Shown here piece by piece: positions 33,373 to 53,061 of a stretch of 64,000 nt of DNA. How positions within the stretch are numbered: the first letter of the stretch is position 1; every line of letters starts with the position of its first letter. Under the pieces are notes generated by a model. That model ran no database searches, was not told where the DNA came from, and worked only from the letters and a program-made list of their open reading frames with translations. Source of the stretch: Omphalotus guepiniiformis (taxonomy: Eukaryota > Basidiomycota > Agaricomycetes > Agaricales > Omphalotaceae); contig JAQOOI010000046.1 of assembly GCA_028554645.1 (NCBI GenBank), forward strand, positions 124,001 to 188,000. The letters run 5' to 3'. The translations under genes were made by a program, and so were the position numbers.

Positions 33373-33735
33373 TCACCGCCACCAAAAGCGGGGATGCAGC
33401 ATCTTCTCATACCCATACTTCACCATGTCAAAATCTAACTTCCCACCACTCGATTGAACATGTTCGACAAAACGTCTCATCTGCACCTTATCCTTCACAT
33501 ACTCCTCTCGTATAATTTTACTGTCAGGGTGTGAATCAGACAGTTGTTCCCTGCTTTTGTACGGGATGCAACGAAAGGGAAAGAACATATGAGAAACTAT
33601 GTCCTCGAACGGAAGGTCGCTGTCCGTCAATTTTCGTGATTTATAAATTTCTAAAACAAAGGAATAGCACAGCATGAATTGAGTTCAGTTTTTTGAAAAA
33701 GAATCCGGAAACCACGCACCTGTGAGCTCGGGAGC
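33373..33735 (-). pseudogene. Family X copy 3, 3' part (exon 2 and last bases of exon 1)
   Basis: Exon 2 (33650-33373) encodes KFINH-type start then LTDSDLPFEDIVSHMFFPFR, SHPDSKIIREEYVKDKVQM and KYGYEKMLHPRFWWR. An intron with the family's GTGCGTG donor and only the last ~16 bases of exon 1 (GCTCCCGAGCTCACAG on the minus strand) precede it. Directly upstream begins the terminus of the 19-kb element. The missing exon 1 is found at 52755-53061 on the same strand, so this is one gene split by insertion. Neither half has a frame-breaking lesion of its own that I can see. Confidence 0.88.
33729..33735. repeat. Left 7-bp target duplication of 19-kb element (CGGGAGC)
   Basis: CGGGAGC recurs at 52755-52761. 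In the intact paralogues the equivalent bases occur once. With 7 bp, both element ends show exactly 9 nt before the AACYAGTT motif. Confidence 0.87.
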
Positions 33736-33779
33736 CCGTAAAATAACTAGTTAAAATCAGAACTTGGCAGTGATGACCG
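33736..33779 (+). repeat. Left terminal inverted repeat of 19-kb element
   Basis: Nine terminal nt, then AACTAGTTAAAATCAGAAC and a stretch ending GTGATGACC. Pairs imperfectly with 52712-52754. Confidence 0.8.
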
Positions 33780-33889
33780 AATATCAACCTGGGTGAAGTT
33801 CAATGACAAATCATTATATTCATTGTAAATACATTACAACGGAATGTACAGTACAGTAGTAAATAACAATAATATTAATATGCACCCGT

Positions 33890-34290
33890 TTGAACTCCCG
33901 TCGTGTAGAAATGAACTTGGTTTGAACTCGGTCGTGATTCAATGAACTCGCCGTTGGGATTTGAACTTGAGGAATGTATTGAACTTGCGTTGAGTGGATT
34001 TGAACTTGAGCATTTTGGCCTGGAAATGAACTTGCACTCGAAACATTTGAACTCGACGACTTTTGAATTGAACTTGAAGGTTTTGAACTCGAAACATTTG
34101 AATTGAACTTGAAGGTTTTGAACTCAACGACTTTTGAATTGAACTTGAAGGTTTTGAATTGAACTCGCCGGTTTTTGTTGAATTGAACTCGCCGGTTTTT
34201 GAATGGAACTCGAGGTTTTTGAATGGAACTCGAGGTTTTTGAATTGAACTTGAGGCTTTTGAACTCGACGAACTCGGCTTTATACTGACA
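33890..34290 (+). repeat. Left subterminal array of TGAACT motifs
   Basis: Around twenty copies of TTGAACTTG/TGAACTCG with variable 10-20 bp spacing, often in an AATTGAACTTGAAGGTTTT-like unit. The core TGAACT is in the same inward orientation as the complementary array at the right end. This is suggestive of multiple transposase-binding sites. Confidence 0.75.
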
Positions 34291-34406
34291 AAAGAAAAAA
34301 CAAAATAAACATATCGTACGCGGGTATTGTACAAGTACAATCAACGATTCTTTCAGACGCAGGTCAGATTAGATGAACACAAAATAAAATAAAACTTACC
34401 TTCCAA

Positions 34407-34850
34407 TCACAGCAAAGAAATGAGTACAAAGACCGGAGCAACGATGTTCGAAATTACTACGTCCGGAGTTCCCTGAAACTCGAAAAGCTCGCAATGTCGT
34501 CGATGGCCTATGAACCTGTTACGAGGAATCACACAAAAACACGAACGAAATACGCACAATGAATACAAGTATCTCGCGGGCGTCGTACGCATAACGTTTC
34601 CAGCATGGCATGGCAGAGTTTTTCTGAACAGCAAAGAAGGAATGAGTGACAACCAGCAAAAAAAAACGAACTTACCGGCTCGAACGTATTCTCGTACAGG
34701 TACCGCGAGGCACCAGTGCTGTTGTTGCCCTCTACACTGTGCAGCCCACTCTCGTTTACGTCGTCGGAGGTTGGTCGTGCGACCTATTTTGTAGTGATCG
34801 GTGCCGACGATATGGAACACGTAGAGGTATCCCGGTCTGTCCGCTATCAT
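34407..34850 (-). CDS. GIY-YIG superfamily (T5orf172/MUG113-like) protein, transposon cargo
   Basis: ATG at 34850 opens MIADRPGYLYVFHIVGTDHY then KIGRTTNLRRRKREWAAQC, a clear GYLYVF (GIY-like) and YKIGRT..LxxR (YIG-arm) signature of the T5orf172 branch. After an intron with a GTAAGT donor (near 34674) the frame continues EKLCHAMLETLCVRRPR, and after a second intron FIGHRRHCELFEFQ, where the Glu of CELFEF sits where family members carry a conserved C-terminal acidic residue. Total about 110-130 aa. Family members occur in phages and in fungal genomes and are thought to bind or nick DNA. It lies at the left end of the large element. It may be a nuclease accessory, a domesticated regulator, or passenger DNA. 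Confidence 0.66.
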   Translation of the reverse strand: MIADRPGYLYVFHIVGTDHYKIGRTTNLRRRKREWAAQCRGQQQHWCLAVPVREYVRAGKFVFFCWLSLIPSLLFRKTLPCHAGNVMRTTPARYLYSLCVFRSCFCVIPRNRFIGHRRHCELFEFQGTPDVVISNIVAPVFVLISLL

Positions 34851-35084
34851 CTCCGTAAAGTGTGAAGGGTGCGCGAGAAGAGAGTTGTTTGCGACGAGAG
34901 AGTGAATTGCGAAAGTGAGAGCGAGAGATCGAAGTTGTTTGTTGCCACAAAAGTCGTCGTGGTTGAATGAATCGTCTCAAGCTATTAGTGATGAGATGTT
35001 AACTACGAGATTCACGGTGAATACAACGTCACCTGATTTTGAAGAATATATGAAAGACCAACCTTAGCTGTTTTAGAGGAAGTC

Positions 35085-35563
35085 TTACGAGCTCACCGAA
35101 ACGGTTTGTTGCTGGCGGCCGTGGGAATTTGATATGGAGAGTGCCTCGGTACGTATCTTGCTCGCTCTGCAGTGATGAGGACACTGTAGAAGGACAATGT
35201 CTGTAGGTTCTGAAATAAAGAAAGATTCTGAGAGATAGAACACGTCCAGAATCGGTACAAACTCGGGATCAGGCCACCGTTGAAACCGAATTGAGCATGT
35301 GCGCACGAGCGGGGCAATGTGTGGGGAAGCAAAGAACTGGAGGCGTTCAAAGGCTTGGGCAAGCCCCTTGCGCTGGAAAGTCTGAAAAGAGTATTTGACG
35401 GTCTCCCAGGAGTACTCACAGACAATAGTGAGATTGCGATACAAGTAGGAATGAGTAAGCCAACGAAACGAGCGACAAGTCAAAGCAGTGCTACGCAAGC
35501 CAGGAAGATCCAGCTTGTGCAAAGCCCCAGGGTAAAGCTGCAGTGCTAGCGCTATTGCGGCGC
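35085..35563 (-). pseudogene. F-box-like protein fragment, captured
   Basis: The minus-strand frame reads LALQLYPGALHKLDLPGLRS, TALTCRSFRWLTHSYLYRNL and FFASPHIAPLVRTCSIRFQRW. This looks like the beginning of a basidiomycete F-box/LRR protein. No start codon fits: upstream the frame reaches a stop within 20 codons, and downstream it ends after unrelated residues. It is arranged tail-out against the PRP31 fragment on the other strand. I treat it as a captured host gene fragment inside the large element. Identity is moderate. Confidence 0.45.
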
Positions 35564-35639
35564 ACTTTTCATGTGAGATCGTGGTTGTACCGTTTATGAG
35601 CTGAATACTCGCTAATCATATTCTTTTTACTAACAGCTT

Positions 35640-36190
35640 CTGGGCGCTCAGAAAAAGATAGCAGCCGGATTTTCCTCTGTGACCCAGAGACGGCAGCCCG
35701 GTTTCGTTTTCCAGTCTGAACTGGTCACACAGACACCGCCAGAATACCAGATAAAGATTCAACGAACAATAGGAGCCAAGGCTGTTCTTGCAGCACGAAT
35801 GGATTTGGAACGCCAACAAAGGGATGGTAGGCTTGTTCCTCTGTGCTCTACCTACTCTCGTTCCTTTGACGATGCGCCATCATATAGGTAGCTATGGAGA
35901 ATTACTACGAGATAAGGTCGAAAAGCAAATAGATCGTCTTGCTGCTCCCCCTCCATCAAAGGTAGTACGGTTTACTCATCGCGCATGACTTTAGTGCACG
36001 GAAAGCAAAGGAAGCTTACGCACAAACGGAGCTGCGCAAGTTACAGAATCGTATGGCGTTTTGGCGAAGCAGAGGAGGAAGTGGGCGCGTTTGACGAAAC
36101 GAAGGGTTTGGGTATGATTGATGTCGGGACCGGTAAAGTCAGAGAAGGAATGGGAGAGGCAAAGAGTAGAGGTTTGCTGGATTTTATTCT
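35640..36190 (+). pseudogene. PRP31: PRP31 splicing-factor gene fragment, captured and frameshifted
   Basis: Three adjoining exon-like pieces give [20 protein letters not shown], then [31 protein letters not shown] and [20 protein letters not shown], then [20 protein letters not shown]. This is the C-terminal third of the U4/U6 snRNP protein Prp31. The intron between RDG and SYG is retained (GTAGGC..ATATAG, 35827-35887), so the piece was copied as DNA, not from mRNA. One extra T near 36059-36062 shifts the frame right after RMAF, and no start or upstream Nop domain is present. It cannot make functional Prp31. It sits inside the 19-kb element and is cargo or debris. Confidence 0.82.
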
Positions 36191-36432
36191 TTCTGTTGCC
36201 CCTTTCATTGATTCATATCGCTTTTGTTAGCTAAAATGTCAAAGGAAGGCTTGTTATTCGTGTATGCTTTATCATCCGTCCACAGAGGAAGCGACAGTGG
36301 GGAAAGCAGGGGGACATTCATCTTGGCTGGGTACAGACAGAAGGTAGAGAAACTGAAGTAACAGGTTTTACAATCGTGATATTACATTCGCACTCCATCC
36401 CTATTACCGTTGGTTATATGGACAGCGTAGGA

Positions 36433-39400
36433 TCAACAAATGGTGGACGTGCACTGGCAAATCCAATGAGTGTCGCGCTTCGTAAGAGGGAACATTGAAA
36501 CAAACCTCTTGACGATAGGGAACGTGCGCCGCTGCTCGGCCCGCCACTTGCGCACCTGGTCGGCTAGCGTCGAGCCAGGGGGTACTTCCCGAAGTATGTC
36601 TATCCCGCACTTCTTGAAGAGGTCTCGACACTCCTTCTCCAGATTTTTGTACAAGATTGCTTGCTGTTTTGCATAAGCCACGTGTCCGGGGGTGGATTGT
36701 TTTGATGCCAGGCTTGACCACACCTCATACATTTTGGCAAATGCTCGAATACATCACATGAATTCGGCATGCTTGATTTCTACTTGTTCTTCCCATCGCT
36801 CGAAGTTCGCTTCATCTCGGAAGAACTTCACTCTCTCCTCTATAGATACTTTGCTGTCAGTATGTTGTTCAGCCACTTTTGTACGTCACTCACGCTCCTC
36901 TGCCCATTCATCCACCTTGGCCGAATCTAAACCTCGCCGCCAAATCCATCCGTCCTCGCTACTGGTGTGCTCATCTTTGGCCTTCTTCGCTGGCGGGGCT
37001 ACAATCGACTAGCATGAGGTGGTTCTTGAAAAAACCATAATCGTAATACCTACCTTTTGTGGGCGATGCCTGTCGCTTTGGTGCTATAGAAAAATGAATT
37101 AGATATAATGACCTTGACCAAACATGTTGCTAACTTGCCTTTTCGTCTTGTCATTTCCGTTGCTCCTCGTGACTCTTGCGTGGATGATGAATCTTTTTCG
37201 GTCCTCTCCCACTTCATCCCATTCCTGGCCTGATCAGTTTCGATAGATATACTAGCAGCAGCACCTGCTCTCCATAAAGCTCCATCCATGTGCCGCGATG
37301 CCCCAGGACCCCGTTTGACTGTAGTCTGTTGCCGCCATGTATCCTCCTCTCGAAGCTCTTGCCACTCTTCTGAATCCTGTTGGATGGCGCCCAGGTTCAC
37401 GAGAGCTCGACGATGACGATTGTAGTGATATAACTGTTCCTTTCGCCTTGCAATATAATTGTTGATGACAGTTGTGCTGCGAGTGTTCTGGTCCTGACCA
37501 CGATGGTGGACAGCCTTGTAGTCTCCGGCTGCAGTCAGCATGCGAACGGTCGCCTGTAACTCGAGGATCAAATCCCATGCTAATGCCTTTCGCAGGTCAA
37601 TCTCCTTTTGAGCCAGTTCGCCCAGCCCTAGCTCGAGGTATTGATCGACCGGCACGTCTGAAGGGATCCATAGAACCTCGTCCTCCACATCACAAGGCTT
37701 CGCTGTACACACCAAGTCCTCTATGCTCGGCATTACTATAGGCTGTTGAATGCGTAATTTCTCAATCCTTCGCGAGAGCTTCACTCTTCGTTCTTCTATT
37801 TCTTGCTGAGCTTTATCGTCTGATCTCCTCCCTGTTGCCCGAACATCCTTCCCCTTGTGTTTGATGATCGCTCTAGCTGAGATATGAGTAAAGTACGGGA
37901 TAAAAAGTGTGATTCAGATTGAACGCACTGAGCTTCCTGAATTGAAAGTGCTTCTTTCAGGAACCAACCGATCAATGTCTCCTGTACCACAGCGTCGACG
38001 CCGCATGATATGACTGCAGTGGACTTGAGCATTTTCTGCATCAACTGCGTGAACGATAGCGCTGGAGAGACAGCATGTCAATAAAATCCATCAGATTACA
38101 TTACATTGACCTTGACCGTATTCTCACCTTTACTTGAAGCCTGAGCATAGACCGAATGAACCAGCCGTTTTTTTTTCTTGTCGATGGTCGGAGAACAATC
38201 TTGCTGGTTCCAAGCCTCGAGCTCGTTCTGGTGAATGACGCATAAAGCACGAAAATTGTCTCGAGCTTGAATGTGCCGATTCACTGCATATGTGAGCTCC
38301 TTATACAGCTGCTGACCTGCATCTTTTTGTTGGTGAGCTGGCCCCTGTCTTCGATATTATGTGCACTTACCCATGTTCAAGACTTTCCGAGAAGACCAAG
38401 CCATAATCATTTCAATGATCACATCTTGCCGATGGCCGTTGCTCATTTGTCTCACCGCAGGACCAAGAGCATTTGTTTCCCCCCAAATTCCCTCCGCACT
38501 CTCTCCGTAGAAGTGGCCTGTGCATTCTTTGTAGGCTGAGGCAAACAGATACATGCACATGTCGAGATGATTGCGAACATGCATGGCAGGAATGGTGAAG
38601 CGCATGTCGCGAATGACGTAGGCCAAATCTGGAAACCATGCGGAGAATCGTTGCAACAGATGTACAGAATAATTACACTGGCTATCGTAGCTCAGCACTT
38701 GATCTGGAACACGACCCTCTGTGAATTTGGTCCGACGCAGTGCATGCGCCAACGCCAAATCCGTATTCGCAAAACGTTCACCAACCTGCAGGTCCACGAT
38801 TCCTTGTGGTATCCCATGGTCACACATCACATTGACCACCCCAGTAATGTCCATTCCCCTGAACTTTTTCTTGTTTTGCCTGGAGATAGCGTTCAAATAG
38901 GTGCAATTGGCCTTCTCCTCCTTCGATTGCTGCAATTCACCATTTTCCGTCGTGATGCCCTGCTTATTATGTGCTGCGTCCTTCTGAAGCTGTGGTACCT
39001 CGTCAATATACTTCTTTTCTTCTTCATGATGCGGAAATATTGAGCGTCCTTCGTATAATGAGACGTCTGTCCCATCGTGATTTTTGCTGAAGTGATTGAG
39101 CTGAAAATTCCCATCAAGTGTTCGACGACAGGAATGGAGATGCCTGAGATCATTTGGTACACTCTCCCAACCATCCTCCATATTCACGTTCTCTTCTGGA
39201 CAGCTCGGGCAAAAGACGGCGAGGTTTCCACAGGGGCGATGGGTCAGCACGCTGTCAATGCCGTGGCCTTGCCCTGACCATTTGTTCGCTCGCATGAATG
39301 CCCATAAGCGCGTAATGGCGAGGAAATTGGCGTAGAACTCTGGCGCGGTGTGCGAAAAGTTGTAGTCGGTAAGCTGAGCAAGCGCTCGACAGTAATCATA

Positions 39401-40163
39401 CGCGTGCTTTTTGGACGATTCCGAATGTAGCTGAAATTCTCTGAGCACTTTGAAAGTGTACGCAGTTTTCGGCTCTACCACTGACCCAGGGAACAGGTTC
39501 GCAGCGAACAGTTGGTCCCATTTCTCAGGTCTACCCATGCAGTGACAGTACGAAACTCGAGTTGCATGTGCACCATTACTGTCTATGACATTCAACAACA
39601 GAGCATCCTCGCCGTAAGGGCAAGGGTCTCCTTCGTGTCCCAGATGGATAGACCATTGCGGACTCAGCGCAGACAGGTCGTGACGCCTAAAGTAACTATC
39701 TTCAGGTCCCCAAAACTCCGCCCAATGAAAAGGTAAATGTGTGTGGCATGCCAGGAAACACTGATTGCACAGTGGCGCTAACTGGAAGCAATCCCTGCAT
39801 CGCGTAGTCCGAATGCGTTCCGCACAAGAACAAGGCTGTCCTATACGTGGATCTGCGTCCTTTGAGATGTAAGAACGAAGTAACGCTTCAGATCTCATCC
39901 CATACTGCTCCAAAAGATTGGCACGCTGCACTGAATATCCTTAGCCTGTCGCACCTACACATCGTACCAAGCAAGCAACGTACTCGTGTCTTCACTTCCG
40001 CCTCGTTGACGTTCAAATTCGAAGCCTCTCCCTGTGACATGTCATTCGCACCATCTCCCTGTAGACTAGGACGAATAGCGTTCTGCAGTTTCTTTGCCGG
40101 ACGGTCCACTAAGATTTGAGCGAGAATATCCGGTTTGGTGGGACGTCTCCGGTTCGGTGCCAT
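36433..40163 (-). CDS. KDZ-family transposase
   Basis: ATG 40163 (MAPNRRRPTKPDIL). The main exon (about 39931-38372) starts with a CxC2-type cysteine cluster, QPCSCAERIRTTRCRDC then FQLAPLCNQCFLACHTH with HWAEFW. It continues with LTDYNFSHTAPEFYANFLAI and the catalytic core FRGMDITGVVNVMCDHGI, DLQVGERFANTDLALAHAL, LSYDSQCNYSVHLLQRF and GESAEGIWGETNALGP. Later exons (38329-38130, about 38050-37930, 37860-37050, 36990-36433) carry the helical C-terminus with RSTTVINNYIARRKEQLYHY and RRALVNLGAI..WQELREEDTW. The gene is long, as KDZ genes are. All core acidic candidates (DITG, YDSQC, EGIWGE) are present and I see no internal stop in the exons. The exon 1/2 join and the small introns are not fully resolved. 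Confidence 0.88.
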
Positions 40164-40859
40164 CTGCAGCCTGCGGTTAACTGTTGACTCGTGAAGGTAG
40201 TGAGTCCTAACTGACCTTGAACTTTGTTGCTTTCTTTCCCTTCCTTGGTGAGCCCGTGGACAGGCAGGGAACACAAGGACCGACCGAAAATCGGTAGGGA
40301 GACGACTTGCAGTCGCCTACCCAGTAACCACCAGACGTGGCTCTAATATCTGGAAATATATAGAACCGACAAGATAGTCGGTGGGTGCACGACGTGAAAG
40401 TCGCGCGAGGGTTGTCCCACGAGAAGTGGAAAAGGCCTTTTTTTGAGGGGAGTAATCCCGAGCGGGCGACAAGAGAGGAAAAGACCGGAACAAGGTAGCA
40501 ATCAACGGACGGTTTTCAGAGTCACGTGATTTTGTCGATAAATAAACACCTAACCCTAGTTCGTGCCCTTACTCACCCCCTATATAACCTCTTCGAATTC
40601 TGGTCTGGACTAGCTCGTGTATCTGTACTTACTATATCGTTTATGCAATATGATTTCAATGCTTTCGCTGTCCATAAGGGTCGATACGGATAATATTGTA
40701 AAATATGAAAAGTATTACAAACACGCTGTTATACATTGCACCGGACTGATATCATTTCCTGCGAGCCGCGTCGTTTTGAAGTCCTGATGTTGTAGCTACA
40801 TTGACATTGTTGAACCACGAAGAGCTGTCGATGTACGTGTCCACACCCTATATATCTCA
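40164..40859. other. Transposase promoter/leader with tandem hairpins
   Basis: Upstream region of the KDZ transposase. Between 40283 and 40420 five stem-loops follow each other (separate entry). A CCTATATAACC sequence near 40579 could be a TATA element for either direction. No coding frame is supported. Confidence 0.5.
40283..40420. repeat. Cluster of five short hairpins upstream of the transposase
   Basis: Stems seen: ACCGA/TCGGT (40283-40295); GTAGG+CGACT/AGTCG+CCTAC (40294-40320); CCAGA/TCTGG (40331-40353); CCGAC/GTCGG (40366-40381); GTGGG..CGAC/GTCG..CCCAC (40381-40420). Such density in 138 bp is unlikely by chance. Confidence 0.65.
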
Positions 40860-41866
40860 GTGAGGCACTGTCATTCAACACTCAGTTACCTCAAACATAC
40901 CATGTTCAAGCTGTTTTTCTCTTCCCGCTCTTCCGTTTTTTGCTCCGTGGCGCTCTCAGGCCTTTGCCTGGAAAGGGGTTGTCAGTTTCTAACACTGAAG
41001 CGAAGCCGGCACGAAACTCACCTCGGCTCTTCTTCAGCTGTATGCTCCCTAACAAGATGCTTCAATCCACGCAATGCAACTTCGTTCCAACTCAACGTGT
41101 TCAACGATGTTGCGGCCTCTGCGCCACTCTTTCCTTCTTTGGCAGTCACTTGCTGCTTCGTTCCTCTAGATGCGACTGCGTTCCGAATTGACGCGTCGTT
41201 CAACATTGATCTCGGGGTTTCTCGTCAGCTCCTGAGACTAGTAAGAATGCGTAACCGAAACCTCACTTTGTCTCATCTTCAGCTGTAACCGGGGTGATGA
41301 GGTGCTTCAAGCCACGCAACGCGACTTCGTTCCAGGTCAACGCGTTCGACGAGGTTTCGGGCTCGGTCCTTCGACTGGTGTGGGGTGGTTGGCTGTCTGC
41401 GCGTCTAACAACGTCCTGAGACGTACCTCGTTTCTGCTCTCACTTGCTGTTCGTCTGATGCGACAGTGTTGCAGTTTACTTCCTTTATCAACATGGTGGA
41501 AACGGGGAGGAGGTGGTCAATCAGAGAATGTAGTACTTACTTATATGACTGCCAATCGTGAAACTTGTGAAGGTGGTGAAGGTGGTGAAGGTGGAAGATG
41601 GATCAGTATGTTATGTCTGTATTGAACGACATATCTTTCATCTATATTGCCTCATTTGCATTTGCCTGCCTGCCACGTACTGATCCCGGTACGCGCACGA
41701 CCTTTGCCAAAAAAACAGCTCGCGTTTTCACCTTAGTGTCCCCTTCCCCACATGTTGGTCACAACAATTCAATATTGAGCTTGGCAACAAAAAACACAGT
41801 GATGATGATGTTGGAGATTAGTGCTACATGTTGAACTACATTTTAAAAAAAACAGAAAAGCAATAG
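40860..41866. other. Non-coding stretch with two diverged direct repeats
   Basis: Two related blocks (about 41010-41120 and 41250-41365) share GATGCTTCAATCCACGCAA-like and ACTTCGTTCCA..TCAACG-type sequence. Open frames here are short and without domain motifs. I do not call a gene. Confidence 0.4.
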
Positions 41867-44025
41867 TCAAGCAGGCAGGCGACGAGGTAGAACAGGCGGG
41901 CGTTTGAGTACGACGAAGGCTGACTGAACGTAAAATTTAACAATGTTATGCTCCCATTCTTTCCCGCGTGACGGTAACAGGTTCAGGTCTGCATCAATCC
42001 CGCGTCGCCAGATAACAGGCTTCGAACCCGACCAAGTGTCCAGTAACCGCCAAAAATGCCTCAGAGCGTGATATCGTTCCACCCAATCCTCTGCAATAAG
42101 GCCTACATTCGCATCAGGGAATGGCTGAAAGGTGGTCCCTGTTTGAAATATTTTGTCGACCAAGGCTTCTCGGGCTCGACGGTGCTGAGCTTCCGCAACT
42201 GCAAGTTGGGCTGCGCTCTCATTGACTGACGGTCGTGGTTTCGAAGAGTCCAATTGACGATCAACTGCAAGCAATTCGTGTCTGAAGTTGATCATTGCCA
42301 GCTCCCATATAAGTACTTGACCCCGCCTGCGGTCGAACGGACCTGTTCGCGAAGTCACAGGCGACGCCTTCCCACCGAATCGGTCCATAGTGTCTCGCAC
42401 CAAATGAAACGCATGACTCTTTATTGCCTGCTTTTTTGTCTCAATCGCCCGACCAGGATCAGTATTCAGTGTTGGCATGTTCAGAACCTTTCTCCACGTC
42501 TCGGTGCTTTGTGGCTCCACAGGCGTCTGCAAATCTCGGCATCTCGCCAACCACGCTGGACGGAAATGCTCCCATTGATGGAGAAGGTTGTCCTGTCGCC
42601 CGTCGGTTCGGACGCCAAAGAACAAACCGGGATCTGGCACAACGAAAAACTTCTTTTGCTGAGTGATGCCCTGAGTTTGTATGGTGAGATTGACTCGCTC
42701 CCATGATGGAATCGTCGCTGGTGCCATTGCATCCGTTGAATCATAGTCGTCGAAAGGATTGCGTTCCTCGGGTGGTGCTACATTGAAAGGTAGAATATCA
42801 GTAAGAGTGCCTCAGTGTGAGTAGATATTGAAAACTGACGCCCCACGCCCTTTCCAAACCGAGGTTTGGCGGAAGTGCCCCTCTTGGACTGGCTGTATGG
42901 GCTCACAGCAGCGGCGTGATTGATGCGGTCATTCCTAATAACTCCGGTCGACGTTTCGGCAGGTTGGGCAGCGGCAGAGTGCGAGTACACAGGGGAAATG
43001 ATACGATCGACCCCAACCCGATGGGACGACTGGTAGTCCCCCGGATGGTGGCTGTTTTGGAAAGGGCTAACATCTAAGAAACAATTGATGCCGGAAATAC
43101 GAATGGCTGCGAACTTCGTCTCAGACCCAGCCTGTGTAGTGGCGATAGGAAGGTATGGGGGCTTGGCCTGGGCTACGCAGATCTTTGGTGGGGCAGGTTG
43201 TATTAACTGCACCTCCTTCTGAATGACCTGGCAGCGGAAGCTTGAGTAGGGTCGCACAAAGTACACAGGGAGTCCGGCGCGAAATAGCAACGAAGCCTGG
43301 GCATCGTCCCACACAAACACACCAAGACGTGTGGCGCACGTTACTGTGGCTGCCTGTCCTTCACCCCTCATCAGCGCAGAGAATGTGTCGACATAGTCAA
43401 ACATGGCCTGCAAAGTCAGCCACGCCCTTTGTAATTCCACCAACCCTCGTTGAAGATCACGGATAGGGGAGGCAATGGTAGTGATGTGGATGAAACAGAT
43501 CTCCATTGTTTGACGCAGTTCCCCTACCAAAGCTCTGTCACGGCCATCAGACGAGGTCAAGAAGAACTTTTGTGTTCGATCCTCCATCTCTTTCACGGCT
43601 CGTTGGAGGTCCTCCTTGAAATCATTGGCGTAACCAGTGGTACCGCCTACAATTGCCTGTCGTGTCGGACTGTCCGGGAAAAAATGGAGGTAACAGTCTT
43701 TAATATCGCTCCACATGACTCGATAATCCCAAAAAGGCCAAAGTTCATCTTCAGGTCGCACTGGTATGCATGCAAGATAAGGATACGTTGGATGGAAAGG
43801 TTGCGGCCAGCGACAAGGGTCATCCGGACCATAGCGAGCGTCGGACCGACGATATATATCTCGAGTGGATCCATAGGGAGGTTCTGGAATGCTAATCATG
43901 TTGGGGGAGGTGATGAACGCCTGGATTTTCGGCAGGAGTGCTCCTGTTACGCCGTCAGAGTACGTGATTTCGACACCTTCTTCGACCTTGTTGCGGGTAA
44001 GATTGATTGAGTGCGTTGCTGACAT
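41867..44025 (-). CDS. 698-aa companion protein of the KDZ element (unknown function)
   Basis: Two exons, 44025-42840 and 42777-41867, joined through a 62-bp intron with an unusual GTCAGT donor. Segments that look structured: RYGPDDPCRWPQPFHPTYPY, LACIPVRPEDELWPFWDYRV, IVGGTTGYANDFKEDLQRAV, a helical DLQRGLVELQRAWLTLQAMF, then TRLGVFVWDDAQASLLFRAG and LPVYFVRPYSSF. The second exon has SWERVNLTIQTQG, FFVVPDPGLFFGVRTDGR, RKVLNMPTLNTDPG and a final ALRHFWRLLDTWSG region. I have the impression that similar proteins are common in transposon-rich basidiomycete genomes, but I recognise no named domain. Its position next to the transposase in the same element suggests a role in transposition or in persistence of the element. 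An intact frame suggests it is still functional. Confidence 0.78.
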
Positions 44026-44512
44026 TATGCTACACATGGAATGAGAAGTATTGAGAATTATTACAAGCCATGAAGGAAACTGGAAACGCACGGCTCAGTC
44101 CTTTATGCAATGCAACCAGTAAAACACCAAATGGAACCGATGGAACAGTGACAGACGCCAAAATGGCGCCGCGATCTAGACTAGCACGAGATGTGCTAGT
44201 GTTTTGCAGAAGCACAATGAAGTGCCTGTGTTCAAGAGATAGCGTTCAAAGCTGTGTGAGGAAGTAGAGGAAGGAGGAAGAATATTAAGTTAAGCGCCGC
44301 GGCGCCACATCAACTGGCTCATTAAGCGCTCAGCGCTCAGGCCACAGCGCTGCGCCACACGCAGCCCCATCTATCAGGGCACCACTTATTTAACCACTTA
44401 TCAATATATCAGGCACTACTTACTTGACATCAAAACTCTCATAAAATGTGACGTTGTGTGGTTATAAGCCAAATATATATTTATCGTTAATGTAACTAAC
44501 GCTATTCACGAC
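44026..44512. other. Spacer with a perfect hairpin
   Basis: Promoter side of the 698-aa companion gene. Contains ACTAGCAC-GAGAT-GTGCTAGT at 44180-44200 (8-bp perfect stem) about 155 bp upstream of the ATG, and a GCGC-rich palindromic stretch near 44290-44370. Confidence 0.5.
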
Positions 44513-45377
44513 TCATTGAAACATCGGATGAAGTGCAGCTTCCACTCCCTCAGCACATAGTTCCTTGTAAAACCCGACGGCGTCGTCTCTGTTTCGCCAA
44601 GCGTTACAACGTTTTTAGCGACAGTAAAGGGGGGAACACTTACAGATCCTCAAAGACTCGACACTGTTCCTTCCATTGTACCACATGCCGCAGACTCTGA
44701 CCATCCACTACTTTTCCCTTCGCTTGCTGCCGTTTCTTCTTGGGGCTCGCAGGCGAGAACGTGCACGGAGGATCAGTTCCCATGTACTGAAAAGGATCGG
44801 CAGGGTCCGGAATACGAGGTCGAGTAGGTGTAGCAGGGCCTGAAGGGGAGGATAAGAGACGAAAGCGCTGTGTGAGCTCCACCACTGATGCACCCTGAGC
44901 GACTGATGCAGGCTGAGGATTGACGCGATGAGTGGAGGGGTTTGCAGCGGTAGGCGATGACGGCAAAGGTTCAGAGGCTGGAACTGAAGGCGAAAAGGGA
45001 GACCCCACGAAAGGTTGCAGTGTGCCTGTCCAAGGATTCACGAATGAATCGTCCTCGCCATCGCGGTGATCGTGACTTTCAAGGCATGCAAACCTCCACC
45101 ATTTCAAGGCCGAGTCCTGCGAGCTGAATTTCCGGGTTATGGCCTGCACCTTTTTCGCTTGAAGGCTGGCACGATTCCTGCAGAGCATTAGAATATCTGT
45201 TTCGAAGAAAAGGTCACGGACTCACCAGTCCTCATAAATACCAGCTTTCGCTCCGTCGAATAGCACATAATAAGACGGGGTGACACTGTTATAGACAGGG
45301 CTTTTCAGGCAGTACAATGGGGGCTTGCAACCTCGGCGAGGGTCGCCACTAAAATCATTATCACTGGGGTTGCTCAT
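44513..45377 (-). CDS. RNase H1 N-terminal-domain-like protein (253 aa), transposon cargo
   Basis: Three exons join in phase: 45377-45226, 45177-44644 and 44588-44513. The first exon ends and the second starts within a segment reading SYYVLFDGAKAGIYEDW, then NRASLQAKKVQAITRKFSSQ and DSALKWWRFAC. This matches the pattern of the small RNase H1 N-terminal hybrid-binding domain (YYVV..G..PGIY..W..C..QV..F..A.F..F....EA). A Pro/Ser-rich middle and a basic KKKRQQAKGKV patch follow. The last exon ends KELCAEGVEAALHPMFQ. No RNase H catalytic domain is present. Binding to RNA/DNA hybrids or double-stranded RNA is inferred from the domain. It lies between the 698-aa companion and the next small gene, all on the minus strand. 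Confidence 0.7.
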
Positions 45378-45397
45378 GGATGAAGGATAAGAGGACA

Positions 45398-45413
45398 GTC
45401 ACACTGGTGTGAC
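45398..45413. repeat. Palindrome GTCACAC-TG-GTGTGAC
   Basis: Seven-base arms around a 2-nt centre, 21-36 bp upstream of the ATG at 45377. Could be a hairpin or a binding site for a dimeric protein. Confidence 0.5.
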
Positions 45414-45678
45414 CATCTAAACCAGCAGGATCCGCGAGGCATCCATCACGGCCACATAATTTTCTTTTGCAGGTCAAATGATTTTTCAACGACCGACAAA
45501 AAAGGATTCTGATCGCAGGGGTGATGATCTCTATGCAACCAATAGCAATCTATTCAGAACTCGTAAACTACGATACATCACGGACTAGAACCAAGGAAGG
45601 TCAAATCAATAACTTCGCGCTCGGGGGAGGAGAATCCCATTGCTGTATCTCCATCAGCTGAAGAGGGGAAAGACGATG

Positions 45679-46411
45679 TTAGCTATCAATGACAGGGAAG
45701 TATGGGTGGCACAACTGACAGTCTGGAGTGGCTGCGCGGGGTGCAGGAACCTCAACGATGTTATGCGGAGTGTACCAATGGGGGTTATAGTGAAGACGGT
45801 GCCTAAATACTTCAGGCCTCCCAACAGTGCGAACGAATTCACTGAACGCAACCCGAACGTATCCTCGAATAGAGGTGCTGAAAGCTAAGGGTTTCCTCGG
45901 GTCGCAAAGAGGGCCGCAAGGAACTGCTCGTCTCATCGCGTCTGTCGGGCCATGGGTCCTAGACCACACTGTCCGATCGGCACGCTCGTAAAGGACAACC
46001 ATTGTGCCGAGGACACAGCGCTGGAGAAAGCTGGTCCTCATATGTTGGGGCTGCTCGTTGGCGCACTCCCTATGTTCATGCCCTTCGGCCACACACTATA
46101 GATGTAAAATGGTAAATTCTGTTAGCGAGGCGCATGGTAAGGACATATTGACTGACCTCTTGTAGAGTTTGCCCCATTCGTGAGAAGTCATTACGACCGT
46201 AATCAATCCAGCGGGCCAGTTCACACGAAGGGAACCTGGGGTTGTTCACTACGGGCTGCACGATGCCGTAGATGACATGCTTGAGCATGTATTCGAGCGC
46301 ACGAGCAGGTGAGACAATAGGTGGGACAGACGAAAGAACACCCAGCAGGTTCTGGACGTCCGTGTTGAGGGGGTCATTGTGAGGTTCAACACTTTGAATG
46401 TCCACGTCCAT
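45679..46411 (-). CDS. Small element-encoded protein A (about 223 aa, unknown)
   Basis: Exons 46411-46157 and 46095-45679, joined in phase 0 with a GTCAGT donor and CTATAG acceptor. The sequence starts MDVDIQSVEPHNDPLNTDVQ, contains VPPIVSPARALEYMLKHVIY and RNDFSRMGQTLQE before the intron, then CVAEGHEHRECANEQPQHMR and YERADRTVWSRTHGPTDAMR. I recognise no domain. The intron falls at the same place as in small protein B (48196-49152), where exon 1 ends LSNIGRWYEE; the two appear distantly related. The start is the first ATG; a codon further upstream in frame is TTG. Confidence 0.6.
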
Positions 46412-46541
46412 GTTGAGCAATGCATCAAGTTGGAACTGTTATATACGCTTCAGCACCCAATCACAGGTAGGCAGTGGTTGACGCGTATACCTGTTGGGGT
46501 GACCCGAAACTACGGACATGCAGCACTCTGATAGGAGAAGG

Positions 46542-46828
46542 TGTTACGGCAGGAGCCGCCCGGCGCGCGACTCCAGGTCGCTCGCCACACAGAATGACGC
46601 AAGGGTCGTCAAAGCAAAAAGCAAAATAAAATAAAAAAAGGAAAAAAAAAAAGGAAAAAAGACCCAGTGCTGAGTTGTACTGGAAGAGAGTTGATACGCG
46701 CTTGTTGTTACGGCAGAAGCCGCCCGGCGAGCGACCTGGAGTCGCGCGCCGCACAGAACGACGCAAGGGTCGTCAAAACGAAAAAAAGGCCCAATGCAGA
46801 GTTGTACTGGAAGAGAGTTGATATGCAT
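46542..46828. repeat. Duplicated block with inverted GC-rich hairpin
   Basis: Two copies (46542-46612 and 46707-46778) are direct repeats in their flanks (TGTTACGGCAG.AGCCGCCC and ACGCAAGGGTCGTCAAA). The 25-nt GC-rich hairpin inside them (46562-46586 and 46726-46750; arms GGCG and GCGAC) is present in exact reverse-complement orientation. A second direct repeat, AGTTGTACTGGAAGAGAGTT, follows each copy. The poly(A)-rich run at 46614-46660 separates them. Confidence 0.75.
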
Positions 46829-46939
46829 TTGTCGTTGTGGAGCTAAGTCACGTGAATTGGATGAATAATTCCACGATCACGCGCAAGCAAAGGACCACGA
46901 GGCTCACATGAGCCCAAGTAATCGTCACTCTTTTCTTAA

Positions 46940-47490
46940 CCTTCACCTCGTCCGGCGTTGGCCACTTCATTGTGGTCCATCAAGCATGGCGACCGGTGTG
47001 TCGTTAGTGCAGTCTGACCATAGGTCACTACCATTTTTTTCGAATATATCTTTGTTGACCCGCGGGATAAGACCCGGTACCTTCAACTAGTTGTTACCTG
47101 AAGACCTACCTACTATCGTACTTAAGTTATCCTTCACCTCGTCCGGCGTTGGCCACTTCATTGTGGTCCATCAAGCATGGCGACCGGTGTGTCGTCAGTG
47201 CAATCTGACCATAGGTCATAACCACTTACGAATATATATTTGTTGAACCTAAATTGATACCGGAAGACCCTACTGTCGTACAAAATTTATCGTTCGCCTC
47301 GTCCAGCGGTGGCCACTTTCCTTGTGGTCCAGCAAGCATGGCGACCAGTGTGTCGTTTAGTGCAATTTGACCATAGGTCATTGCCTTTTTTCAAATATAT
47401 CTTTTTGGTCCGGCGGATAAGACCTCCACTTGTGGTTGAGAGAGCATACCGACCGTCGCGTCGTTAGAGAAATTGACCATAGGTCACTGA
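46940..47490. repeat. Tandem repeat of 160-191 bp, 3.5 copies, each with a paired hairpin
   Basis: Units start near 46940, 47131 and 47291, with a truncated fourth copy. Each holds CGAC-N6-GTCG followed 11-12 nt later (10 nt in the fourth) by TGACC-ATA-GGTCA. Hairpin positions: 46990-47003 with 47015-47027; 47181-47194 with 47206-47218; 47342-47355 with 47368-47380; 47450-47463 with 47474-47486. The loop of the fourth first-hairpin differs while its stem is kept. Confidence 0.78.
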
Positions 47491-48195
47491 CACAATGAAG
47501 ATGAGTATTGCCGGACTGCCCAGGCATGCGGTTCATCTGAAACGCATTTAGTTTTGTTTTTGTTGGCCAGGGCTCGCCGGCGCACTCAGAGCTCAGTCAG
47601 TCTCCTTATAGCTAGAGCGAGAGGGTTGTGGGGAGCGGGTGCACTTTCGTGCACCTGGTTCGATCTTACAAGATTGGCGGAAAGTGTTGGTCAGAAAGGA
47701 AGGAAAAACCAATGATCGAATTTCAGAGCTTTGCTCCGAAGGTAGGCGTCATCATTGAAATCCTTTTGAGTTGTGCTGAATCTCAGTATGGCTAGACCGA
47801 GAAGTGCAGGCTCAACTTCGGGCGCCAGTCGTGCAGGTGGTGCTATCAAGATTGACCGGAAGGGTTGGTTGGGAAGGGAGAACGTTGAATCCAATCGGCA
47901 GTTGCGCGTGAGATGGATTAACTAGAAGTGTTAGCATTGCCCCGAAGGTAGGTCACATAACTGAAAATCGATTTGAGTAACGACCCTGATAGATCCCGAT
48001 TGTTCTGTGACACAAAGTTTCTAATATTATTTCTTGAGTTTCTTAGCGAAGAATGCAGCAACTTTCAAGAATTTTATTTTTGCGGTAAGTCAATTGCATG
48101 AATTTTTCACAGACCCACTAATCTAAACACATCGCTACAGAATACTACTACTTTTTTCTCAGTTTTTGGTTTTTCAAATGTACTTCGAGCGGTAA
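47491..48195. other. Non-coding stretch with two diverged ~180-bp direct repeats
   Basis: About 47655-47780 and 47845-47980 share AAGATTG.CGGAA.GGTTGGT, ATTGCCCCGAAGGTAGG-like and TTTTGAGT segments. No coding frame with motifs is seen. The rest is AT-rich. Confidence 0.45.
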
Positions 48196-49152
48196 TCAAA
48201 ATTGTTTCACTAAAAGATCCCACCCTGGAGTGTTGGTGATTCCCACCTTGCGAAAGAGCAACAAATCACCAGGCTGGACTCGGAGATCAGTGTCCCAATT
48301 AATTGGGGCCCATCGAACCGCTCGTTTTTTGGAAATCTCGAAGCGGTCGCCGGTCTCGATGCCAGATTGGCCCAGTCGAATCTTGTTGGAATCGAGTGAG
48401 AGACGAAAATCGCCGTGGAGTAAAATGACTACCCTGCGAGCGGGGAGTCCATCCTGGAATGAAAATTAGCTCTATTTGCGCGCATGTGAGAGCAGGAAAA
48501 ATGTACCTGAAGCCAGAAGCGCAAAGTTACCTTTCCAGTGGGGCAAGGGGAGTCTACAGCGGGTGTAGCGGGAGAGAGGCTACGAGGCCTGTTTGAAGCG
48601 TTTGCGCGCGGTACTGACGTTGGGGCGTCCTCGGGGTCGAAGCGGAGCTTGCAGATAACGTGCTAACAGGAGACGACAGATTCGCTCGGAACGGGGTATA
48701 CGGCTCAGTCGCGCGAGTGGCCCTCGTGGCACGTAATGCACCAGTGGTAGCCCGAGAGGGGCGACGCAAATCTTCGCGATAGCGTAGCCTATCGGCGATG
48801 AAACCCTCTTCGAAGACTTCGGGATGTGACTCTCGCAAGTTGATATGGGTAACGTAGTGGCGGTCACGAAAGAAATAGGAAGCGCGTGCTTCCACGAATT
48901 GCTGTGATGCAAATGGTCAGGCTGGGTCATCACTGAGACATATTGGCTCACCTCCTCGTACCAGCGACCGATGTTAGAGAGGTGGCGGTCACCTGTGTCG
49001 AGGTGAAGACCACGAGCACCACGAGGTGGAGGGATCAACCGGCGCAAGTGCTTGACAAGATCACGCTCGATCGCACGCATCATAGTCTGCTTGTCGCCTT
49101 GATAGACGAGAGCGACCTCACCGTATCGTTCGACGTACCCTTCTGGACGCAT
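48196..49152 (-). CDS. Small element-encoded protein B (unknown, exon joins partly unresolved)
   Basis: Exon 1 (49152-48952) encodes MRPEGYVERYGEVALVYQGD, RAIERDLVKHLRRLIPPPRG and ends LSNIGRWYEE. Exon 2 begins at 48901 in phase 0 (QFVEARASYFFRDRHYVTHI, NLRESHPEVFEEGFIADRLR). A last exon at 48454-48196 is well formed, DGLPARRVVILLHGDFRLSL, RFEISKKRAVRWAPINWDTD and LRVQPGDLLLFRKVGI, with a proper TTCCAG acceptor. Between 48600 and 48500 the frame changes. Either a short intron I cannot place or a single-base lesion is present. No domain recognised. Divergently arranged with the 695-aa gene, 490 bp apart. Confidence 0.55.
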
Positions 49153-49477
49153 GAAAGGAAGGACAAGAAGGGGAGGGGAAGCAAGTATCAGCTTTTATGA
49201 CCTGAGCCCTACGAGGAGGTCAGTACAGTCAGATATGTTCACGTACACATAGGGACTGTTCGGCAGTGCCGGGTCAATTTTTCGTAGACTTGCTGGTTGT
49301 CTGGTTTCAAGTTAACGAGTGTTCAGATCTGGAGATCTGAAGTCTGGAATTCTCAGGCCGTAAAATCATTTTCTCTAGGTATCCAAATAAACAAGTAGAA
49401 GGCAAGAAAAACAACAAACAAAGTTTACTGTGCCAACCGAGGGGGAAATTTGATCGTCTCTCCATACCCAACCTTGC

Positions 49478-49517
49478 GCGACTTTCAGGTCGCCAGAGCA
49501 CACGACGTCAAGTCGTG
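49478..49517. repeat. Paired hairpin in the divergent promoter
   Basis: GCGAC-TTTCAG-GTCGC (49478-49493), 7 nt, then CACGAC-GTCAA-GTCGTG (49501-49517). Same module type as at 46.56, 46.73 and 46.99-47.49 kb. It lies 125 bp upstream of the ATG at 49641. Confidence 0.68.
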
Positions 49518-49640
49518 TTTGCGAGCTGACATCTGGTCAGCCCACACTGAGTTCTCCCCCCGCCTCTGACCCGTCGTAGTTCGAAAACTTCCGGATGGAC
49601 ACATCGGAAATCTCGGACCTGCTGACCGCGCCTGTGGACT

Positions 49641-52010
49641 ATGGAGGTACGCTACCCAGAGGTTTTCGTAGATGCAACTGAGGCACTGACGCGTCATTTA
49701 GCGTGTTCTAATAAACGAAGAAAAGGTCCTACAGGAGTTCTGACCGCGGAGCAGAAAGCAAGAGTGGATATGCTGATGCCGTCATGGACTGCCGTCTTGG
49801 AGGCGAATCGTGTGGCAAAGAAGCCGTATCGGTCCAAAAACCCGCCTGAGGTGTTGGCGTGGCTGCAGGCGGTAGCAGTGAGGCTGCTGGACGAATCGCC
49901 CGAGTTTGCGGCAGTTAGAGAGCAGAGAGCGTTGATTAAGGTGGGCCTTGAGAGTTGAAAGATGTTTGGTTTGGTTCTGACAACTTTCCGCCTGTAGAAC
50001 ATTGTTTCCGCCTTCAAGAACTACCGCTTTCATCAATATAGCGAGGAGTCAAACACGGTACAGTCACCCGTTCCCCCCGACGCAGGCAAAAGCCATGATC
50101 GCGTGGTCTTCAGTAACCCTTCGAAAGCTTCGGCGGTCTTTTTCTCGTTCCAGTCGAGGGTTTCCGGCAAGGACATCTTCAAGGAGGAGAGACTAGAGGA
50201 AATCAGAAAAAAAGCAAAGGAGCTACAGCTGTCGAATGATGCTGAAGGACGACAAAACAACAATGCGGGTTTGTTTGCGCGCGCGCTCGCAATCTGTTAT
50301 CGCGAGTGTGAGGAGAAGGAGCGATACGAGCAGAGGGCAAGTGAACTAAACGTCAACGAAAAGGAGTAAGTTAAACCCCCCTCCTCATTGAAATTATACA
50401 GCTGAGCCTCGGAATAGGAATCGCGCAAAGTTCTTAGGAGCGGCTCACAGCACACTCTCTGCCATACGAGATACTGGACGCTTAGGACAAGTCGGCATGC
50501 AGTTGATGCTGGCGTACATGAGTGAGAGTGGTCCACGTGCGACTATGTGAGTTGTTCCTTTGACGCTGTCAACTAATCAACTTACATTTTTGCGGTTCAA
50601 GGTTACCAATTGACCCTGTATGGAAGCCTGAGGGCGAGGAATGGGAGGACGATACCGAGTACGTTGACCGATACGCGTCTTGGGCCGGACAATTTCTTTC
50701 AGCTGGTACGTTGAGTAACTGGTGCCGCCTCGAGTTGATATTGATTGACATTCGAAACATGCGCAGTGCACACACAGGATAACGGACAGCGCCAACACGA
50801 GATACCCTCGAATAAGGAGGGTGTTCCGGTCTTTCCCGAGGTCGATCTGTGGAAGATGACAGGTGAGGAACAGAGTGCGTTGTATAACGCTTATTTCAGT
50901 AGAGTTTGGGGTATGTTCGTTTATTCTACACCTTGCGCAGGGCAATGAATCTGACCTGATCATTCAGAACACAGCTGGCCTTTTGACACCACTATGCCAG
51001 CAATCCCATGGGCTGATATTGCGGAGACTCCAAATCTATTCTACGATACACAAACGCATACGATGCCCAGACCACTTGTAGCAGCAGACTTACTTGAGCT
51101 GAGCGACATCATGAGCGTGAATAGTTCAATGAGAAAACACTCGGGAGTCGAGGCGGCGTGCCCATTCGTGTTCTACCCGAAAGCTGTTATCCAGCAAAAC
51201 CTGCATTCACATAAAACGTCGGTTCAGGAATCATGGTGTGAGGGTGAAGAGGTCGATGGCAAATCGTCGTCACCGATGGTCATGGGTGACATTCCCTTGG
51301 GTGAGGAATCTGCTGGAGAGGATGACGAAGCGGTGTGGCAGGGCATTGAGGACGATGTCAAGTCATCGTCACCGATGGTGATGGGTGACATTCCTTTGGG
51401 TGAGGAAGGTGCTGGGGAGGATGACGAAGCGGTGTGGCAGGGCATTACACAGTCGGACAAGACGCCAGGGGACGAGGAAGAAGACGAAGAAGAATGGCAG
51501 GGTATTGCCCAGGAAGAAGAGGGAGATGAATGGCAAGGCATTGCCAAGGGCTCAGTGGAGTCACCAGGCGAGGAGAAAGCGATCGACGTCGGGTGTTCGG
51601 AGATCATGCATCACGAAATCGGTTCCAGTGAAATGGGTACAACAAGACCAACACGGAAGAAGAGGGCGGCTGTGAGTTCTCCACGGGCTCGGTCGGCAGC
51701 TCGAGCGTCAGTGCAATTGGGAGCAAGAGGTCTCAGTGCACCTGCTCCTTTGGACGCCACTCCCAGCCTTTTCATGAATGGTGTCCCACGACCTGAACAG
51801 CCAAAGGAGTGGACTGAGAAGCAGCTTTGGGGAGCGGGGGCACCATCGGGATGGAGGGGTTATGCGATGTTGACGGATGATGGACAACCAATGTCTTGGG
51901 TCCCTGGCCTTGGATTTGTAGAGGTTGATGAGCACACTCAAAAAGTGATTCATCGCGACGAATTTGACAATGTTCGCTACTATGACCGACCGACACGGAC
52001 TACCAAGTAA
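49641..52010 (+). CDS. 695-aa element-encoded protein with WQGI repeats (unknown)
   Basis: Six exons join in phase: 49641-49940, 49998-50365, 50418-50546, 50602-50705, 50767-50910 and 50968-52010. The N-terminal half is charged and helical (KKPYRSKNPPEVLAWLQAVA, DIFKEERLEEIRKKAKELQL, LALAICYRECEEKERY-type stretch), then PIDPVWKPEGEEWEDDTEYV and VDLWKMTGEEQSALYNAYFS. The C-terminal exon holds an acidic region in which WQGI recurs four times, each after Asp/Glu residues; a 33-aa SSSPMVMGDIPLGEE unit occurs twice. A basic PTRKKRAAVSSPRARSAARA segment and GAPSGWRGYAMLTDDGQPMSWVPGL-type end follow (written here only in part). It is the only long plus-strand gene of the element and reaches close to the right end. 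Function unknown; the repeats look like protein-binding peptides. Confidence 0.78.
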
Positions 52011-52049
52011 AACTCGTCTTTGTGTGCGTGCCCGAAGTTTTTACTAACG

Positions 52050-52740
52050 TGGTCAAGTTCACTACTAATGGTGCGACTTCATCAGTGCAATGTCAAGTTC
52101 ATTGGTGGGGGTGGAGTTCATTGGTGCTGAGTTCAAGTTCATTAGCAAAGGTGGAGTTCATTAGTCTGGTATGAAGTTCATTACTGACAAAGCTCAAGTT
52201 CATTGGTAGGGGTGGAGTTCATTTTGTAGTCTCAAGTTCATTATTGACGAAGTCCGAGTTCATTAGTGGTGACGGAGTTCATTACGGACCTGGCGCAAAT
52301 TCATTAGCAAAGGTGGAGTTCATTTTTTAGTCTCAAGTTCGTTACTGACGAAGTCCGAGTTCATTAGTGGTGACAGAGTTCATTACGGACCTGGCGCAAA
52401 TTCATTAGCAAAGGCGGAGTTCATTTTTTAGTTTGGAGTTCATTATTGACGAAGTCCCGAGTTCATTACTGACGATGGAATGATGGTCATACCTGGCTCT
52501 GGTTGAACAAGAAGGTGAAGTTCATTACTCCAAGGCTGAAGTTCATTAGTGGCATGGGATTCATTACAGACCCAGCTCAAGTTCAATACGCAGGTGAAGT
52601 TCATAAGTAGCCAAGTTATATTTCATTAGGTTACCAGTACATTCACGCAGGCTTTTGTTGTAGTCTACCATTATGTAATCAAGCAAGTTCATTTGAAGCC
52701 AGATCAAGTTAGGTGATGACCGCCGAGTTCAGAATAGAAC
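52050..52740 (-). repeat. Right subterminal array of AGTTCATT motifs
   Basis: About 25 copies of AAGTTCATTA/GAGTTCATT, spaced 15-30 bp. On the minus strand they read TGAACT, so they mirror the left array at 33890-34290. A unit of about 100 bp containing GACGGAGTTCATTACGGACC is itself repeated around 52260-52430. Confidence 0.78.
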
Positions 52741-52754
52741 TGGTTAAAATTTAC
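52712..52754 (-). repeat. Right terminal inverted repeat of 19-kb element
   Basis: On the minus strand: 9 terminal nt (GTAAATTTT), then AACCAGTTCTATTCTGAAC and a stretch ending GTCATCACC; 25 of 34 positions match the left end. Confidence 0.8.
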
Positions 52755-52761
52755 CGGGAGC
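52755..52761. repeat. Right 7-bp target duplication of 19-kb element (CGGGAGC)
   Basis: Exact copy of 33729-33735. Confidence 0.87.
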
Positions 52762-53061
52762 ATACTGTACTATGTTCTTCGGAAGACCACACTTGAATGA
52801 GTCGTAATAGAAAACGGAGTCCCTGAGAGACAAGGGACCTTCCTCCGCAATCTCTTTTGGCTCTCTGAGACTGGAGATGAAGGACAGGAAGTCTTCGTTC
52901 GATATAACGTAGCCCATAACCCAGGCATCCTTCGACGCTCGTTTCTTGGAACGTTTCGCAGAAGACGAATTAGACTTCTTCGAGGACTCCTTCTTCAACT
53001 TCGTTTCTGTGGGGAGTTCGGGGTCAGTCGTTGCAAGAGGTGGAATTGTGGTGGAAGACAT
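52755..53061 (-). pseudogene. Family X copy 3, 5' part (exon 1)
   Basis: ATG at 53061 opens the usual head (MSSTTIPPLATTDPELPTET, SAKRSKKRASKDAWVMGYVI, SNEDFLSFISSLREPKEIAE) and runs to LPKNIVQYAP, where the 19-kb element begins. The remaining ~16 bases of exon 1 and exon 2 are at 33373-33735. Read through into the element, the frame stops after three codons, so only a truncated ~100-aa product could be made from here. Its promoter is of the CACGGG type (about 53085-53090), as in copies 1 and 7. Confidence 0.88.

Follow-up and report, generated by a model that had tools for sequence, protein, structure and literature searches.

A 19-kb insertion in Omphalotus guepiniiformis, probably a KDZ-superfamily DNA transposon with a conserved multi-gene core, splits a gene

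The 64,000-nt window analysed here (C36:124001-188000; C-numbers denote contigs of the 42.5-Mb Omphalotus guepiniiformis genome, which is assembled in 80 contigs) contains a 19-kb insertion that we read, with a probability of about 85%, as a KDZ-superfamily DNA transposon whose core comprises several conserved genes. The insertion is bounded by 7-bp target-site duplications (TSDs), is present in two further copies with different flanks, has a diverged relative with the same gene order on C38 and interrupts exon 1 of a family X gene. A first-pass annotation had described a bounded KDZ element of ~19 kb splitting one gene, and the copies, the TSDs and the paralogous target sequences all agree with that description. 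The boundaries were judged from assembled contigs.

Boundaries and target site

The sequence CGGGAGC flanks the insertion on both sides, as had been noted (Table 1). The 7-mer alone is not rare (three occurrences in the window vs 4.7 expected; 2,938 genome-wide vs 3,799 for a reversed control), and what makes it evidence is not rarity but position, precisely where a repeated unit starts and stops. The element begins with CCGTAAAA and ends with TTTAC, and its terminal inverted repeats (TIRs) are imperfect: recomputation gave the same figure as the first-pass annotation, 25 of 34 positions matching after a 9-nt tip, a score reached by one of 200,000 random 34-mer pairs drawn from the window. Where that annotation had placed the element at 33729-52761, the bounded unit of ~19 kb stood, while the TSDs belong outside it, leaving 33736-52754 as the transposon proper. 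The hexamer TGAACT forms inverted arrays, with 18 plus-strand occurrences in the first 700 bp and 24 minus-strand occurrences in the last 719 bp; the 17.6 kb between the two subterminal arrays hold eight, counting either strand.

When both halves of the interrupted gene were joined by script, single junction-spanning alignments were obtained to six paralogous loci of the window (77-84%), and an alignment of 93.6% over 1,645 bp to C38:39800-42000, where GCTCCCG occurs once and the site is uninterrupted. One gene had been proposed to be split, its halves 19 kb apart and its paralogues carrying the target bases once; the junction-spanning alignments bear out the split, and the six window loci together with the C38 locus bear out the single target. 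The C38 locus also supplies the empty site with a single CGGGAGC for which a search had been suggested. Judged by its sequence, it is a paralogue or a diverged allele, its standing as the ancestral allele being unproven.

Family X paralogues form a cluster in the window on C36 (20123-21812 and 55072-60664) and again at C38:34814-55621. Exon 1 has 15 matches in all, one of them on C77, and one C38 member is 96% alike. The clusters on C36 and C38 suggest a duplicated region or a diverged haplotype.

Copies elsewhere in the genome

A full-length copy, 99.3% identical, lies at C79:63327-82355 with TGCGTGG on both sides. Another copy is split: its first 90 bp follow CTCATTT on C31, and the remainder (99.5%) is on C49, ending before CTCATTT. 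Matches of the window to C79 and C49 were confined to the element (E 1e-10). Different TSDs together with different flanks identify these as independent insertions, not duplicated segments. The genome search with the termini proposed in the first-pass annotation returned two further copies, with the same end bases and different 7-bp duplications. As to the grounds for doubt named there, every full-length copy found has the same ends, and misassembly of the window insertion is very unlikely given independent copies on other contigs.

A candidate fourth full element on C75 was rejected as a relic, since in the 37.7 kb compared the left 1.63 kb alone matches (94.6%). The left end has five other matches, which include the C31 piece and a match of 30 bp; no short non-autonomous copy was seen among them.

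The three copies differ at 72 single sites, where the odd base is in the window copy 30 times, in C79 31 times and in C49 11 times. With the odd base counted as derived, C>T changes account for 56 of the 72, and 50 of these 56 are at CpG. This is the pattern of methylated-cytosine decay, from which we infer that the host methylates the element at CpG. As the observed/expected ratio of CpG is alike inside (0.96) and outside (0.95) the element, any such decay would be recent.

A diverged relative and the conserved gene set

The transposase identifies the superfamily. KDZ proteins are DDE-type enzymes, and the core exon of the gene has a KDZ domain (PF18758) at 5.6e-44, scoring 150.9 bits vs a cut-off of 26.6. 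The CxC zinc-cluster domain associated with this superfamily is present as CxC2 (5.2e-26), and the ends are likewise in keeping with it, being well defined and flanked by short TSDs of constant size, 7 bp in the three copies and in the C38 relative. Intact KDZ elements of Pleurotus also have CxC2 preceding (PMC7641404). The core exon is open and its protein is identical across all three copies; 13 relatives of the transposase were found, in Dendrothele, Stygiomarasmius, Mycena, Lentinula and Mucidula.

The related element on C38 is 14,375 bp long, with the TSD CGTTTTC, ends matching at 39 of 45 positions and similarly inverted TGAACT arrays. Its uninterrupted target, a second kind of empty site, was found at 34 places in the genome, 27 of them exact matches, against 0 for a reversed-pattern control. 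Judged by the flanks, the repeated sequence around this element seems to resemble a retrotransposon polyprotein.

Both elements have the same order of genes: a T5orf172 gene, the transposase, P, a short open reading frame (ORF), S and Q. Of 14 coding stretches of the window element, 11 match the C38 element, with proportions of synonymous differences (pS) of 0.80-0.91, which are saturated, and of nonsynonymous differences (pN) of 0.22-0.45. Low pN over saturated synonymous sites indicates that selection kept the proteins. The four genes beside the transposase (T5orf172, P, S and Q) and the short ORF thus look, from their conservation, like core companions rather than random cargo. Since selection has kept them, they most likely benefit the element, through its movement, its copy number or its escape from silencing, and not the host.

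Recurrence of the gene set in the genome

The following counts leave out the three copies, and P loci were grouped by hand from the listed matches. A KDZ transposase match lies within 20 kb at 11 of 18 P loci. At each of the 10 non-self Q loci, P lies no more than 30 kb away; on C72 the distance is 28 kb, and the interval contains a copy of the repeated sequence that is the target on C38. The non-self matches of S are, in six cases out of six, at P, Q or transposase loci. A T5orf172 match was found within 20 kb at eight of the 11 transposase-P loci (C38, C7, C19, C78 twice, C16 twice and C42), and on the Q side at three of these (C16, C42 and C78). The 11 loci make up about three families: C38/C41/C72; C16 (twice)/C42/C78; and C7/C19/C44/C78. 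The gene set on C7 spans 90,940-120,168, at least 29 kb. In the family of C7:90940-120168, C19, C44 and C78:323427-352455, the gap between transposase and P is 14 kb and P is reversed.

Proposed mechanism

Subterminal repeats are transposase-binding sites in other transposons, and here the transposase, with its CxC2 domain and KDZ catalytic core, may bind the inverted TGAACT arrays at both ends. It would pair the ends and join them, in a presumed cut-and-paste step, to a staggered 7-bp cut, which host fill-in would turn into the 7-bp duplication; the duplication, the inverted ends and the KDZ transposase are consistent with a staggered cut and join. The insertion into exon 1 broke the family X gene. 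The transposase would carry along four companions, namely the T5orf172 nuclease-like gene, P, S and Q, as well as the short conserved ORF. Given that CpG-biased decay suggests host methylation of the element, anti-silencing by the companions is a testable idea.

We consider it an even call whether these elements represent an unrecognised multi-gene KDZ class of Marasmius-like mushrooms, in which transposase, T5orf172, P, S and Q would be one inherited machine for movement or anti-silencing, in place of the TET/JBP of other KDZ elements. The size of such a class would be 14 and 19 kb where ends were seen, with gene sets of at least 29 kb elsewhere.

Weighing the evidence

Several observations weigh against a KDZ transposon with a conserved multi-gene core. 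No movement was seen. In the window and C79 copies the transposase has an in-frame stop, at a CpG site and before a stretch conserved in the C38 element, whose frame continues for ~90 similar residues past that point (a later stop there may mark an intron). In the C79 copy the second exon of P contains a stop too, and a further insertion, X, breaks the C31/C49 copy 90 bp from its left end. Given these stops and the broken copy, autonomy is not demonstrated for any of the three, which could move by means of a shortened transposase or with help in trans. The first-pass annotation had listed a KDZ transposase and at least five intact-looking genes: the KDZ gene is there, while the stop at 36754-36756 breaks the full-length transposase, and S in the window has a 2-bp difference from S in C79 and C49. 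No empty site for the C79 insertion was found in the genome with up to three mismatches allowed. At C41, C72 and C44 (three of the 11 transposase-P loci) there is no T5orf172 nearby among the matches listed, and since the loci are about three families and not independent events, a binomial p of 3e-13 overstates their independence. The roles of P and Q are guesses, because the structure model of P, built from eight sequences, is poor (mean predicted local distance difference test score, pLDDT, 53) and Q has no relatives among the 7,996 database candidates scored.

Some of the material speaks for captured host genes, maybe beneficial to the host, in a cargo-bearing KDZ element that would be the basidiomycete counterpart of Starships: 19 kb with several non-transposase genes, three of 14 stretches without a C38 match (the F-box-like ORF, 44640-45221 and 46076-46438), and seven of the 18 P loci without a KDZ transposase match within 20 kb. 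Yet the companions are collinear and conserved in the distant C38 element and recur with KDZ transposases, findings that also leave the earlier description of the extra genes as Starship-like captured cargo unsupported, and KDZ, CxC2 and T5orf172 alone exceeded the Pfam cut-offs in scans of 10 and seven proteins. This makes cargo capture improbable, at roughly one chance in ten. A nested or composite structure, in which a short KDZ element and mobile or host DNA had gathered between two ends, would account for the tandem repeats and non-conserved ORFs at 44.6-47.5 kb. For the unit as a whole it is contradicted by the independent copies, the same 19 kb being common to all three at 99.3-99.5% identity, and the C38 element has the same gene order within 14.4 kb; we regard it as highly improbable. 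An assembly artefact, or a segmental duplication parting halves of different genes, might be suspected in an 80-contig assembly with many repeats and judged without reads, but the copies lie on separate contigs, each with its own TSD, and this, with the uninterrupted locus of a paralogue, makes it scarcely plausible at all.

Features of the window element and insertion X

Positions of the features are collected in Table 1.

Table 1. Coordinates of the transposon, its genes and the interrupted gene in the window
Feature	Position	Strand	Remarks
Transposon, 19,019 bp	33736..52754		bounded by 7-bp TSDs; further copies C79 (99.3%), C31+C49 split (99.5%)
Left TSD CGGGAGC	33729..33735		single in C38 empty site
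Right TSD CGGGAGC	52755..52761		single in C38 empty site
Left imperfect TIR	33736..33778	+	28/45 ungapped; 25/34 after 9-nt tip
Right imperfect TIR	52712..52754	-	pairs with left repeat
Left subterminal region	33736..34435	+	TGAACT: 18 on plus strand, 1 on minus
Right subterminal region	52036..52754	-	TGAACT: 24 on minus strand, 0 on plus
KDZ transposase gene, multi-exon	36433..40163	-	in-frame stop 36754-36756 here and in C79, not C49
Transposase core exon, CxC2 + KDZ domains	38357..39940	-	KDZ 5.6e-44, CxC2 5.2e-26 (Pfam)
ORF with T5orf172 (GIY-YIG-like nuclease) gene	34407..34976	-	Pfam 9.5e-6, 26.5 bits vs cut-off 20; 38% amino acid identity in C38 element
F-box-like ORF, possible captured host fragment	35085..35615	-	Pfam F-box-like 0.027, sub-cut-off; no C38 element match
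Companion gene P, ~690 amino acids, at least 2 exons, exact splice not fixed	41867..44025	-	relatives in Marasmiineae
ORFs R	44640..46438	-	of three stretches, 45682-46095 alone matches C38 (42.5% over 87 amino acids)
Companion gene S, several exons, model not fixed	48199..49194	-	2-bp difference at 48604 vs other two copies
Companion gene Q, 7 exons, 692-amino-acid model	49595..52011	+	matched in C38 and at 10 non-self loci
Family X gene, 5' part (exon 1)	52762..53061	-	joined-halves alignments
Family X gene, rest of exon 1 + intron + exon 2	33373..33728	-	joined-halves alignments

T5orf172 belongs with the GIY-YIG nucleases. Relatives of P are eight proteins, including ones from Lentinula, Stygiomarasmius, Gymnopus, Marasmius and Collybiopsis (Marasmiineae), with 32-42% identity; such P-like proteins are filed as hypothetical in Lentinula, Marasmius, Gymnopus and others, and the element gives them a context. 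The best NCBIfam match of P is far below the cut-off (17 of 860 bits), its Pfam match to FKRP_N (0.094) is also sub-cut-off, and a sequence search against solved structures gave a best E of 0.068, to a designed protein. No Pfam family was found in the first 431 residues of Q. Weak sub-cut-off matches in the Pfam scans of 10 and seven proteins were to F-box-like, YqeY, MUG113, CxC1, MAGE_N and FKRP_N. Short repeats at 46542-47424 appear in the C79 and C49 comparisons too.

Insertion X, which separates the two parts of the C31/C49 copy, has the tip CACTGGGCCC on C31 and C49 in opposite orientation, with TTG of the element on both sides as a 3-bp duplication. Its first 3.39 kb are 97.6% identical between the two contigs, and the first 2 kb have ~27% GC. 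In C31:129548-157462 and C49:55864-79704, where X lies, these 3.39 kb form an inverted repeat, and another 7.9 kb occur twice with 99.9% identity; a second end was reached on neither C31 nor C49 within the stretches compared. These features suggest that X is a very large CACTA-like insertion into which other elements have nested. T5orf172 genes have at least 84 matches in the genome, several of them a few kb from other KDZ matches (C78, C79, C63 and C17) and two inside X; in this genome the T5orf172 nuclease may accompany mobile elements in general.

Comparison with known systems

Starships, classified by their tyrosine recombinase (PMC12134995), are large, multi-gene, mobile elements of fungi (Pezizomycotina) and in this resemble the window element. 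The enzymes differ: the window element has a KDZ transposase and a 7-bp TSD, and its extra genes mostly look core-like. No captain tyrosine recombinase was found in Pfam scans of 10 ORFs, part of Q and four further ORFs, which covered the smaller ORFs in part.

The first-pass annotation had suggested that a KDZ-type equivalent of Starships would be a different system. A wholly different one it is not, as KDZ elements with an extra gene (PMC12730594) and KDZ elements of 9-11 kb (PMC12810828) are in print. The latter are from Cryptococcus, where an insertion was caught. Like the window element, KDZ1, KDZ2 and KDZ3 of C. neoformans encode a KDZ transposase that includes a CxC domain, and they have terminal repeats and short TSDs. 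They are 9.2-11 kb long, their TIRs measure 139-241 bp, their TSDs 8 bp (KDZ1) or 4-8 bp, and their domain is CxC1 (PMC12810828), whereas the window element has 19 kb, short imperfect TIRs, a 7-bp TSD and CxC2. Nor is size alone new, in view of an element of ~42 kb, the largest in a Marasmius oreades library (PMC9674265), and of the abundance of KDZ and Plavaka, about half of the DNA elements in that species (PMC8290104).

Closer in content are the TET/JBP-carrying Kyakuja and Zisupton elements of Agaricomycotina, which combine a mushroom KDZ transposase with an extra gene and have TSDs of 7 bp in Kyakuja, as here, and of 8 bp in Zisupton (PMC12730594). Kyakuja elements of Laccaria have CA..TG ends without TIRs, in contrast to the ends of the window element and its imperfect TIRs (PMC12730594). 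The extra genes also differ, TET/JBP there (PMC12730594) and P, S, Q and a nuclease-like gene here. As an explanation of the extra genes, TET/JBP was rejected, none of the seven PF12851 matches listed being on C36, C79, C49 or C38. Sub-cut-off TET/JBP matches at C34:105820-106185 and C43:58688-59074 lie ~4 and ~2 kb from other KDZ matches.

In the titles and abstract openings covered, which did not include Iyer et al. 2014, no description was found of a KDZ core in which the transposase is joined by P, S, Q and a T5orf172 gene. Polintons and Terminons offer a parallel in that companion proteins evolve with the mobility enzyme, in Terminons also with GIY-YIG-like ORFs; their mobility enzymes differ from KDZ (PMC5718144). 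Mushroom KDZ elements are common, and the literature consulted characterises them by their transposase and, in some cases, by TET/JBP. Beside them, a bounded and recently amplified KDZ family with conserved companions is a defined unit for asking what the companions do.

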